43,222 bases of DNA, from assembly GCA_026416975.1 (NCBI GenBank), contig JAOAEC010000003.1:1-43222 (forward strand), written 5' to 3'. The DNA comes from Patescibacteria group bacterium. GTDB taxonomy: Bacteria > Patescibacteriota > Microgenomatia > UBA1406 > GWC2-37-13. Every line of letters starts with the position of its first letter. The stretch's first letter is position 1. Positions 10,060 to 32,801 of the stretch are shown piece after piece. A program made the position numbers and the translations under genes. The notes below the pieces were generated by a model, which saw only the letters and a list, made by a program, of their open reading frames with translations, did no database searches and was not told where the DNA came from.

Positions 10060-10213
10060 AACGTATAATATAGAATATGGAGCTTGGAACGCAGAACATA
10101 TAATATTAATAAAAAATGTCAAAAATCAAAACTAAAAACTTAAAACTAAAATCTAAAACCTTAAACAATTAATCCTTCTAACTCCTAACTACTAGCTACT
10201 AACTACTAAATTA
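10060..10213. repeat. Degenerate heptad-phased intergenic tract A (22 units)
   Basis: AACGTAT AATATAG AATATGG AGCTTGG AACGCAG AACATAT ... AACTAAA AACTTAA AACTAAA ATCTAAA ... TAACTCC TAACTAC TAGCTAC TAACTAC TAAATTA: constant 7-nt phase. Confidence 0.75.
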
Positions 10214-21982: not shown

Positions 21983-23251
21983 TTAATAGATAAATTTTAC
22001 AACCTCTTTTCCCAATTTAACCGCATAATTTGTTCCTCGATCATAAGGATAAGTCATCTCTAAATTAGCAAGGTAAAAATTTTTTGCCGGTGTAAAAAAA
22101 TTTGGTTTGTTTTTAATAAATTCTTTATTAAAAATTGGTTGAGCAAAATGAGTTTTAAACAAAAAACAATCGGTTATTGATGAACAATAATGAGGATTAA
22201 TAGCTTTTAGATAAGGAAGAATAAAATCAATTAACTCTTCTTTAGTCATTTTTAATATTGGATCGCTGTCTTCTAAATACCAACCCAAATAAACAATCTC
22301 TTTTCCCCCATAATGCTTTTTGTTAATAAAGTTAGTATGTTGAACTATAACCATCATGGGAATTTTTTCAGTTGATACATTAAGCCAATAAGTTTTATCC
22401 AAAAGAGGTTGTTTTGACTCAATAATTAATGTTATGGCTGATAAATACTCAATTTTGCGGAGATTTTGCGTAAATTCTGCGGAAAATATTTTTTCTGATA
22501 TCTGGCTTAAAAGCGGTGAAGGTAAGGTAGAGACAACTATATTAAATAATTGGTTATTAATAAGATATTTTTCTCCCCTTTTTTCAATTTTTATCACAGG
22601 TTGGTTTTTTAATATCTTAACTGATAAAAACCCTAATTTTTCTTCTAAATAATTAATAAAATTCTGAAAACCGCCAGTTAAATAACCCAACTTTTTGGTT
22701 CTTTTTTTTATTCGCGCCCAGATAAAGCTGGCTAAAATATTTTCCGCATATTTTCCGAATTTTTTCCGAAAAAGTTGTTCAAACAAGCTATTAAAACTTT
22801 TTTCTCCCATGGTTTTTAACAAAAAATTAATGGCGGTTTGTTTTTCGTATAAAGATAGGGGGGGCGAGATTTTTAAAAAAGCCAAAACCAAACCGGCGCG
22901 CAATCTATCAAAAAAAGAAAGTAAAGGAAAGTTTATTAATTGCCAAGGAGTATCTAAAGGATAAATTTTAGGTTTGTGGTTTAAGTATAAAGAAGCGGTT
23001 TCCGGAGTTTTAAAAAAAAGACCTTTAAAACCAATCTCATTAATAAAATCAATGATCTCCTTATCATTAGCAAACAAATGATGATAGGTTCTCTCTAAAA
23101 ACCACTGCCAATCTTTGTTTTTAAAACCACCAGCTAAACCACCCAACTTCTTTTCTTTTTCAAAAACCGTCACTAAAAAATTTTTTTTTGCCAGGTAATA
23201 GGCGGTTGTCAGTCCAGTTAAGCCGCCACCTAAAATTGCCGCTTTTTTCAT
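21983..23251 (-). CDS. FAD-dependent oxidoreductase (amine oxidase/protoporphyrinogen oxidase-like)
   Basis: KKAAILGGGLTGLTTAYYLAKKNFLVTVFEKEKKLGGLAGGF: Rossmann GxGxxG and GG doublet. Confidence 0.88.
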   Translation of the reverse strand: MKKAAILGGGLTGLTTAYYLAKKNFLVTVFEKEKKLGGLAGGFKNKDWQWFLERTYHHLFANDKEIIDFINEIGFKGLFFKTPETASLYLNHKPKIYPLDTPWQLINFPLLSFFDRLRAGLVLAFLKISPPLSLYEKQTAINFLLKTMGEKSFNSLFEQLFRKKFGKYAENILASFIWARIKKRTKKLGYLTGGFQNFINYLEEKLGFLSVKILKNQPVIKIEKRGEKYLINNQLFNIVVSTLPSPLLSQISEKIFSAEFTQNLRKIEYLSAITLIIESKQPLLDKTYWLNVSTEKIPMMVIVQHTNFINKKHYGGKEIVYLGWYLEDSDPILKMTKEELIDFILPYLKAINPHYCSSITDCFLFKTHFAQPIFNKEFIKNKPNFFTPAKNFYLANLEMTYPYDRGTNYAVKLGKEVVKFIY

Positions 23252-23272
23252 AGGTTATTATTATACTCATTA

Positions 23273-23347
23273 TACTTAGGTTTAAAAGTCTCTTCACTTA
23301 AATTAGATGTTTTAAGGTGGGCAAAGTCAAGTTGGTTGGAGATATAA
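23273..23347 (-). repeat. Dispersed intergenic element, copy 4 (short form)
   Basis: TATACTCATTATACTTAGGTTTAAAAGTCTCTTCACTT...TTTTAAGG...AGTCAAGTTGGTTGGAGATATA aligns with the reverse complement of 30138-30241. Confidence 0.7.
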
Positions 23348-29926: not shown

Positions 29927-30094
29927 AAACGTAGAACTTGGAACATAAAACTTAGAACGTAGAACATGAAACATAAAACAAAAAATCTCCCTTCATACTT
30001 AATACTTGATGCTTAATACTAATTTTAAAACTTTAAACAAAATAAATCCGAAATTCTAAATCCTAAATGCTAACTACTAACTACTAGCTCCTTT
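29927..30094. repeat. Degenerate heptad-phased intergenic tract B (24 units)
   Basis: AAACGTA GAACTTG GAACATA AAACTTA GAACGTA GAACATG AAACATA AAACAAA AAATCTC CCTTCAT ACTTAAT ACTTGAT GCTTAAT ACTAATT TTAAAAC TTTAAAC AAAATAA ATCCGAA ATTCTAA ATCCTAA ATGCTAA CTACTAA CTACTAG CTCCTTT. Confidence 0.8.
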
Positions 30095-30137
30095 TTATAA
30101 TTTTGCATTTTTCTTTTATCTCCTAACTCATAACTAA

Positions 30138-30241
30138 TATATCCAACTAACTCGAATTTACTTGCCTTAAAACACCGGAAAGGTGACCGGACGAACTCCC
30201 TTCAGGTGAAGAGAGTTTCAAATCTAAGTATAATGGGTATA
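30138..30241 (+). repeat. Dispersed ~104-bp intergenic element, copy 1
   Basis: TATATCCAACTAACTCGAATTTAC...GGTGACCGGACGAACTCCCTTCAGGTGAAGAGAGTTTCAAATCTAAGTATAATGGGTATA. Confidence 0.75.
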
Positions 30242-30264: not shown

Positions 30265-31950
30265 ATGAAACGATTATTAGTTTTTTTTCTTATTGTTTTT
30301 GGTCTGTTTTTTTTTCTTCAAAAAACCTTAGCTGAGTCGATTGATGATGAGATTGAAAAAATTAAACAAGAGTTAGGTGTTTTAAGTCAAAACTTAAAAG
30401 AAAAAGAGGCGGATTTTGAAAAGATTAATCAAAAACTTAATCAGATTAAAAATCAGGTTGTTTTAATTGAGCAGGAGATATTAAAAAAAGAGACTGAGGT
30501 AAAAAAAGGTGAGGTGGCTTTAGGTTATCAAAAAAAAATCCTTAATCTTAGAGCCGCATCATACTATAAAAACATTACTAAAAGTTCTTTTTCTCTTTTA
30601 TCTTTTATTGCTGCTGAAAATCTTGGTCGTTCGTTAGAAAACTTTTTTTATCAAAAGTTTCTGGTTGACGAAGACAGAAAAACGATTTTAAAAATTATTT
30701 TTTATATTAAGAATTTAGAAGAACAAAAAAAACTCTTAGAAGAAGAAAAAATCAATCTTGTTGCTTTAAAAAAAGAGGTTGATCGTCAGTCTAGGCTTTT
30801 AAACCAAGAGATTAGTCAAACCAGGGAAAAAATCGCCTCTCTTACTGCTCGTCAACAACAGCTTTTGGCGCAAAAATTGGCCTCTCTTAATATTCCTCGT
30901 TCTGCTGGAACCGGTCTTCGCGGCTGTGTTGATGATCGAGAAATTGATCCGGGTTTTTCGCCTCGTTTTGCTTTTTTCACCTTTGGCGTTCCTAACCGGG
31001 TCGGTTTAAATCAGTGGGGAGCAAAAGGAAGAGCTGAGGCCGGCCAAAACGCCGAAGAGATCCTCCGCGCCTACTATGAAAATTTTGAGTTAAAAAAAGA
31101 CTATGATACGGGTATTAATATTGAGGTTGAGGGCTTTGGTGTTTTTAACATTGAAGATTATTTAAAAAGAATCTATGAGATGCCGGCTGACTGGCCACTT
31201 GAGGCGCTTAAAGCCCAGGCAGTAGCTGCCCGTTCTTATGCTTTGGCTTACACTAATAACGGTACTCGTCCTATCTGCGCCACCGACTACTGTCAGGTTT
31301 TTAAGCCTGAGGAAAAAGGTGAACTATGGAATCAAGCGGTTGAAGAAACGCGCGGTTGGGTAATGATTCAAAACAACTCGCCCATTAAAGCCTGGTATTC
31401 ATCCACCCATGGTGGCTATATTTTTAACTCAACCGATGTTGGTTGGTTAAACGCCTCTTGGACAAAACACGGCCCCGATTATTCTGGTTCGGTTAACTCT
31501 TTTTCTGAACTCCAAAACAACGCCTACGACAAAAACTCACCTTGGTTTTATTGCGATTGGGGCTCAAGATCAGAATATAATAAAACCGCCTGGCTTAAAC
31601 CAGAAGAGGTGGCTGATATAGTCAATGTAATTTTATTAGCTCGCTATCTTTCTTTAGAAGATAAAGAGCATCTTTATCAGGTTGATAAACCTAATCCAAG
31701 TGGTAAAGAAATCTGGGACGCAAGCCGGGTAAAAAATGAGTTAATAAATCGAGGTAGTTCTTTTTTTTCAAGTATTAATCATGTTTCGGTGAATGTTGAT
31801 TTTGGTTATGGAAAAACCGTCTCCTTAACCTTTCAAGGTGATGGCGGAAGTGTTTCAATTGATGGTCGCGAGTTTAAAGACTGGTTTAATCTTCGCGCTC
31901 CTTCTAACATTCAAATCGTTGGCCCCTTGTATAATGTTGAAAAAAAATAA
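30265..31950 (+). CDS. Secreted coiled-coil plus SpoIID/LytB-domain protein
   Basis: Signal peptide, PcsB-like coiled coil, then NRVGLNQWGAKGRAEAGQNAEEILRAYYENFEL...EDYLKRIYEMPADWPLEALKAQAVAARSYAL...KAWYSSTHGGY (SpoIID). Confidence 0.9.
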   Translation: MKRLLVFFLIVFGLFFFLQKTLAESIDDEIEKIKQELGVLSQNLKEKEADFEKINQKLNQIKNQVVLIEQEILKKETEVKKGEVALGYQKKILNLRAASYYKNITKSSFSLLSFIAAENLGRSLENFFYQKFLVDEDRKTILKIIFYIKNLEEQKKLLEEEKINLVALKKEVDRQSRLLNQEISQTREKIASLTARQQQLLAQKLASLNIPRSAGTGLRGCVDDREIDPGFSPRFAFFTFGVPNRVGLNQWGAKGRAEAGQNAEEILRAYYENFELKKDYDTGINIEVEGFGVFNIEDYLKRIYEMPADWPLEALKAQAVAARSYALAYTNNGTRPICATDYCQVFKPEEKGELWNQAVEETRGWVMIQNNSPIKAWYSSTHGGYIFNSTDVGWLNASWTKHGPDYSGSVNSFSELQNNAYDKNSPWFYCDWGSRSEYNKTAWLKPEEVADIVNVILLARYLSLEDKEHLYQVDKPNPSGKEIWDASRVKNELINRGSSFFSSINHVSVNVDFGYGKTVSLTFQGDGGSVSIDGREFKDWFNLRAPSNIQIVGPLYNVEKK

Positions 31951-31954
31951 TTTT

Positions 31955-32058
31955 TATATCCAACTAATTTAAATTTATAAGGTTTAACACCCTAAACCAC
32001 TTCATAACAAACGATATGGAACTGGTTCATAGGCGCAAATCTAAGCATAATGGGTGTT
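31955..32058 (+). repeat. Dispersed ~104-bp intergenic element, copy 2
   Basis: TATATCCAACTAATTTAAATTTAT...GCGCAAATCTAAGCATAATGGGTGTT; same length and same ends as copy 1. Confidence 0.7.
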
Positions 32059-32094
32059 TTTTATTATTAGGTTTGTTAATAATAACAATTATGA

Positions 32095-32314
32095 TTATTC
32101 TAATTGTGATCTTAATTCTTTTATTATTATTAACTCATCAATAATTTGATTTCCGTAGTTAATTCGTTTAGGATTAGTTTCAATTTGATTATGCCTTTTA
32201 ATTAAAGATATTGCGTGTTTTAATTTATCAACCTTGTTAGCATAAAAGATCAGGATTTATTAATGTTGCCAGTTTTTTTCTTATATTTTCTGGAGTAATT
32301 TGGTCTCCGCTCAT
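32095..32314 (-). pseudogene. Small frameshifted ORF (~72 aa if repaired)
   Basis: MSGDQITPENIRKKLATLINPDL | YANKVDKLKHAISLIKRHNQIETNPKRINYGNQIIDELIIIKELRSQLE*; interval is 220 nt = 73 codons + 1, i.e. one extra base near CTTTTATGC. Confidence 0.5.
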
Positions 32315-32483: not shown

Positions 32484-32801
32484 ATGGTAAAAAAAATTTC
32501 TCAAAACGATTTTCAAAAAGAGGTTTTAGACGCTAAAGGAGTGGTTTTTGTTGATTTTTATGCTGACTGGTGCGGTCCTTGCCGGATGACGGCGCCAATA
32601 ATTGACGCTTTGTCTCAAGAAAAACCCGAGGTAAAATTTGTTAAATTAAACGTTGATCAAACACCAAACTTAGCCTCGCAATACTCAATTTTTTCTATTC
32701 CTACCTGTGTTATTTTTAAAAATGGCCAGGTTGTTTCTCAATTAGTAGGAGCTCGCAGTAAAGAAGAATTTCTTCAGGAGATTAATAAGTTTTTAGATTA
32801 A
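32484..32801 (+). CDS. trxA: Thioredoxin
   Basis: VVFVDFYADWCGPCRMTAPIIDALSQEKPEVKFVKLNVDQTPNLASQYSIFSIPTCVIFKNGQ: WCGPC motif. Confidence 0.96.
   Translation: MVKKISQNDFQKEVLDAKGVVFVDFYADWCGPCRMTAPIIDALSQEKPEVKFVKLNVDQTPNLASQYSIFSIPTCVIFKNGQVVSQLVGARSKEEFLQEINKFLD

Follow-up and report, generated by a model that had tools for sequence, protein, structure and literature searches.

The ~100-bp repeat dispersed between the genes of this Patescibacteria group bacterium is very probably an IS630-derived MITE (non-autonomous DNA transposon). It belongs to a mobile-element family and is not a new kind of regulatory signal. The window, i.e., the whole analysed stretch of 43,222 nucleotides (contig C33), contains three clear copies of the repeat and one decayed copy. 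In the host genome as a whole (672 kb in 43 contigs, 78% complete), eight copies and one decayed copy are dispersed, at least five of them found outside the window by profile search. The features concerned are the following; the three genes are neighbours lying outside the element.

30138..30241, + strand: copy 1, complete copy of the predicted MITE (sequence; profile E 6.6e-25)
30138..30161, + strand: left terminal repeat of copy 1, TATATCCAACTAACTCGAATTTAC; best match in the window to IS630 ends (19/22 with the IS ends alone, 20/24 with the wider set of terminal repeats)
30218..30241, - strand: right terminal repeat of copy 1, read inward TATACCCATTATACTTAGATTTGA, containing TATAAT; 19/24 to the terminal repeats of other genomes, ranking second among all window sites
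31955..32058, + strand: copy 2, complete element (profile E 1.5e-18; alignment z 7.6)
32325..~32428, + strand: copy 3, left end preserved, right half decayed (profile E 0.005; left end 18/22 to IS ends)
23262..23347, - strand: copy 4, short, internally deleted subtype (profile E 6.2e-18; z 12.5)
30265..31950, + strand: SpoIID/LytB-domain protein (PF08486, TIGR02669)
21983..23251, - strand: FAD-dependent oxidoreductase (PF01593, NF005560)
32484..32801, + strand: thioredoxin (PF00085, TIGR01068)
C22:27000-27110, C43:4131-4240, C41:26751-26855, C39:20410-20498 and C38:26831-26919: further copies outside the window (profile search)

The consensus of the element is TATAYCCAACTAACTYRAATTT-N-CTTAAAACA-N-GTGAAGARAnTTTCAAAYCTAAGTATAATGRGTATA. 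Each end terminates in TGGRTATA when read outward; the right end read inward (TATACCCATTATACTTAGATTTG) resembles the left one. The element of ~100 bp is thus flanked by TA and bounded by imperfect terminal inverted repeats (TIRs) of ~24 bp (TATACCCAACTAACTCRAATTTG...). In copy 1, a 100-bp body (30140-30239) is placed between the TA dinucleotides 30138-30139 and 30240-30241, which form a putative target-site duplication. The TA...TA flanks are present at copies 1, 4 and C43, and the right end of copy 2 is mutated (GGGTGTT). A search with an exact palindromic-end pattern, TATACCCA...TGGGTATA, gave no signal above the control. The copies range from 86 to 106 bp, a MITE size that leaves no room for a transposase gene, and fall into two length classes of about 104 bp and about 85 bp, the latter comprising copy 4 and C39, where an internal piece is missing (~20 bp in copy 4, which measures 85-86 bp).

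Copies 1 and 2 were found where the initial annotation had placed them, each being 104 bp from end to end. Copy 3 had been described as aligning to part of the element; its left ~45 bp are real, but the right half is decayed. Copy 4 is inverted and shorter, as described, but extends slightly further than was claimed (23262-23347). Local alignments of copy 1 with copies 2, 3 and 4 scored above all of 1000 dinucleotide shuffles (z 7.6, 4.8 and 12.5, respectively). For copies 2 versus 3 and 3 versus 4 the score did not exceed the shuffles. Sequence likeness among the host-genome copies is only about 65-70%.

A genome scan for more copies, named beforehand as a test of the repeat, revealed the five loci outside the window. 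The first profile (R1), constructed from five copies by sequence only, gave E values of 9e-24 to 0.002 for these loci and led to the further copies on C43, C39 and C38. With the second profile (R2), which had included them, the values were 3e-20 to 3e-12. This eight-copy profile yielded 7e-25 to 3e-12 for its own eight members, which are not independent of it as they were used for building it. Copy 3, with its decayed right half, reached 0.03 with the first profile and 0.005 with the eight-copy one. Two look-alikes of the right end only (C1:21618-21645 and C11:46967-47022) were rejected as copies, being too weak (E about 0.3 to 0.8). At both places a right-end-like TTAAnnATAATAGGTATA stands just before the start of a gene (ileS and another one), the element being otherwise absent; these sites may be relics of solo ends or else promoters of the ordinary kind in this organism.

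The affiliation with IS630 follows from the ends. Within the GTDB family of the host, 7 of 73 genomes have the IS630 catalytic domain PF13358. The protein of locus L138 is an IS630 transposase according to NCBIfam NF033545 (217.8 bits at a cut-off of 100), and the L137 and L139 proteins share 55% and 50% identity with it, respectively. The L138 gene has TATACCCAACTAACTCAGGTTTGC on its right flank, while the left end of this IS630 copy is missing; a second transposase-like gene (62-931; by eye, an IS481/IS3-type integrase core) is located directly upstream. The ends of the L137/L150 elements are TATATTCCCCTAACTCAGGTTTGC and TATACCCCTCTTCAATGAATTTGC, those of the L139 element TATACCCTTCTCAACTAAGATTGC and TATACCCCTCGTCAATTGAATTGC, and similar ends occur in the transposase flanks of L147, L149 and L194. 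A protein search of the genome contig collection added more Microgenomates copies with such ends, including one from Daviesbacteria (TATACCCAACTAACTCCAGTTTGC). L137 and L139 are 100% identical to the Roizmanbacteria contigs PFLI01000157 and LBTJ01000074, respectively, and the GTDB family of the window therefore includes Roizmanbacteria.

When the IS ends alone were compared with both strands of the window, the top three of ~86,000 22-mers were the left ends of copies 1 (19/22), 3 (18/22) and 2 (17/22). No repeat copies were used in this test, and it is free of the bias in the wider TIR set, whose selection relied in part on a pattern that the repeat copies had influenced. The right terminal repeats match the IS ends less well than the left ones. 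With the wider set, taken from other genomes, the top four window sites were both ends of copy 1 (20/24 and 19/24) and the left ends of copies 4 and 3; both ends of copy 4 were also among the top matches. Four sites scored at least 18/24 against 0.95 in shuffles, and 13 sites scored at least 17/24, seven of them known ends, where shuffles give 5.7. The element thus has its ends in common with autonomous IS630 elements of the same family. Allowing up to three mismatches, the TIR pattern was detected at more than 100 sites in 21 of the 73 family genomes (15 genera), most of the sites being in the relative G060, with one control hit.

The IS630 insertion sequences of Microgenomates (e.g., Roizmanbacteria LBTJ01000074 and PFLI01000157; Daviesbacteria LCBT01000003) share TIRs and TA ends with the window element. 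They differ in their size of ~1.1 kb and in encoding a DDE transposase, whereas the window element encodes no DDE_3 transposase. The host genome, at 78% completeness, contained neither a PF13358 match nor a match to the L138 transposase. The relatives G060 and G036 likewise yielded no IS630 transposase, and contigs of G060 end near such TIRs. TIRs lie less than 100 bp from contig starts in G059 (C19:62-85, C29:63-86, C39:62-85) and in G060 (C14:51-74, C20:69-92). This position would be expected if multi-copy IS elements had broken the assembly, and suggests that multi-copy IS630 elements interrupt the G059 and G060 assemblies and are missing from them.

Direct evidence of mobility comes from the related elements. 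The blastn search with copy 1 among 57 relatives, a method too insensitive for this purpose, gave no match. The eight-copy profile, applied to the 73 family genomes, found mostly chance or coding matches as well as two genuine intergenic ones with inverted ends (L072 and L079); other matches, including L071, L074 and L075, were rejected as glycosyltransferase coding sequence or chance matches. The G036 genome has at least five copies of its element, and the same query gave 39 matching pieces in G060. The G060 copies form two families of about 100 bp, AB (TACCCATCTTACTCCGATTTGC...TTGCAAACCTTAAGTTATCGAAGTA) and DC (TACTTCTATTAATTGAAATCGC...CAAAATCAACTAAGANGGGTA), whose homology to the window element outside the ends, like that of the G036 element, was assessed by eye only. 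AB is inserted in DC at the same TATA in about a dozen arrays, which may go back to a single event after which the composite itself moved; today these composites may be mobile as units of ~200 bp. In five arrays DC is inserted in AB at GGAT^TA^GATGGG: the filled site reads GGAT-TA-[TACTTC...GGGTA]-TA-GATGGG, and the uninterrupted one GGAT-TA-GATGGG. The nesting in G060 also includes a 99-bp element within a 100-bp element, again with the TA duplicated. At L110 7780-8180 (G060:C17) the nesting is triple, an AB lying in a DC that itself lies in an AB, and the TA duplications are exact. Removing the inserts from it produced a DC of 102 bp (one flanking TA included), with scores of up to 98/102 against natural uninterrupted copies, and restored an uninterrupted AB, each insertion having duplicated a TA. 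These arrays are direct evidence that the G060 elements insert as units at TA; the window copies themselves were judged by their TA...TA flanks. Together with the common IS630 ends, the nested insertions bear out the suggestion of the initial annotation that the repeat is a MITE-like mobile element.

The copies in G060 are young, while those in the host genome are old. The exact left-half pattern had no match in the genome contig collection, and neither the left- nor the right-half pattern had one in the viral contig collection; within the collections searched, the window subfamily is thus private to the host genome.

The closest known system, by analogy, is the repeat unit of pneumococcus (RUP) with IS630-Spn1, which mobilises it in trans (PMC2229807). 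Like the window element, RUP is non-coding, 107 bp long, dispersed between genes and bordered by TA; it has terminal repeats in common with an IS630-family element and inserts into other mobile elements (PMC2229807). The likeness is one of architecture; the host phylum is different and so, as far as is known, is the sequence. In addition, the window copies are old and diverged, and the inverted repeats are about 24 bp long in the window element and 9 bp in RUP (PMC2229807). Correia elements of Neisseria (CREE/NEMIS) are also similar in architecture, being about 105-155 bp long with TA termini and a 24-bp TIR, having long and short forms that arise by internal deletion, and often lying upstream of genes (PMC2229807, PMC10969869). 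Their TIR sequence appears to differ from that of the window element. An IHF site is a further Correia feature, and some copies have promoters at their ends (PMC2229807, PMC10969869). In the literature consulted, Correia elements have no such clear autonomous partner. The literature search found no paper describing MITEs in Patescibacteria/CPR genomes.

IS630 elements use TA targets. By analogy with IS630/Tc1-mariner transposition, a gene-less DNA of ~100 bp bounded by TIRs would be recognised by an IS630-type transposase supplied in trans, excised and pasted into a TA, which would be duplicated. The copies in the host genome were presumably moved in this way by an IS630-type transposase. Their movement appears to have ceased, because they are so diverged and no transposase was found. 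Their intergenic placement may reflect where insertions were tolerated.

It is hardly credible that the repeat encodes a structured RNA (riboswitch or leader) upstream of genes. The internal hairpins noted at the outset do occur in copy 1, which has two, and folding of copy 2 on the - strand gives a z of -2.3, but the hairpins are not conserved: the RNAalifold consensus of eight copies has 0 pairs, and the copy 1 hairpins are broken, by eye, in C43, the copy most like copy 1 in the middle. With no consensus pair and no Rfam match, the repeat is to be regarded as a DNA element.

The genes next to the copies are those named by the initial annotation: the SpoIID/LytB gene starts 23 bp after copy 1, the FAD-dependent oxidoreductase 10 bp after copy 4, and the thioredoxin gene follows copy 3. 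Copy 2 begins 4 bp after the SpoIID stop codon, and the right end of C43 is about 13 bp before a start codon. In the whole set, the genes at the copies (SpoIID/LytB, FAD oxidoreductase, a tRNA, a nucleotidyltransferase-like gene, membrane proteins) are unrelated. Together with the missing consensus RNA fold, this speaks against the other proposal of the initial annotation, a conserved regulatory or structured element with a coordinated gene set. Other intergenic observations were made in the window. The low-complexity runs at 10176-10208 and 29940-30130, variants of CTAACTACTAACTACTAGCTCC and AACATAAAACTTAGAACGTAGAACATGAAAC, are a different kind of repeat, which adjoins copy 1. Shortly past the right end of copy 2, at 32090-32143, a possible 16-codon ORF (MIILIVILILLLLTHQ) is strongly hydrophobic and may be due to chance.

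The motif TATAAT, found in copies 1, 4 and C22 and replaced by CATAAT in copies 2, C43 and C39, sits inside the right terminal repeat. At this position the repeats of relatives read ...TAAGATGGGTATA or similar, and TATAAT is therefore explicable as drift of the repeat. Sigma-70-like sites showed no excess over shuffles, and no -35 box was found at the standard spacing of 16-18 bp beyond chance. A promoter function is possible. It is quite improbable that the element is the regulatory DNA (operator and promoter) of a regulon, with a protein binding the conserved left part and RNA polymerase using the right-end TATAAT. Such a role would agree with the distances between right ends and start codons at copies 1, 4 and C43, with the xATAAT kept in six copies with intact right ends, and with the outward starts near the ends: 4 of 9 copies have such a start codon no more than 30 bp from one end, where insertion at random intergenic places would give 16%. 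This mild enrichment, with p about 0.04 in a test chosen afterwards, is no more than a hint. On the other hand, copies 2, C22, C39 and C41 have no start codon near the right end, and the conservation spans both ends, which are mutual inverted repeats matching IS630 ends. The unrelated genes, the promoter-like sites being no commoner than in shuffles and the relatives' elements without TATAAT at that place argue against a regulon as well.

Secondary recruitment of MITE copies as mobile promoters for some genes, as in Correia elements, is unlikely but deserves more credit than a regulon; it would add to the MITE reading and not compete with it. The same placement near start codons favours it, the left ends of C38 and C43 also face start codons, and sigma-70-like promoters are known from Correia elements and further prokaryotic MITEs (PMC10969869). 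The lack of a -35 box at standard spacing beyond chance weighs against it, and the gaps between genes in the host genome are so short (median 39 bp) that closeness to starts is largely forced. If it did apply, old IS630-type MITEs would be kept as portable promoters in this very compact Microgenomates genome, and the terminal repeat of a transposon now dead would start several unrelated genes; this outcome is doubtful.

A TA-targeting IS630/MITE system is thus present in these streamlined genomes, across at least 15 genera within a single family. The dozens of recent nested copies in the single species G060 make a natural record of insertion order. The TIR can serve as an annotation rule for otherwise puzzling intergenic repeats and probably for some contig breaks in these assemblies.
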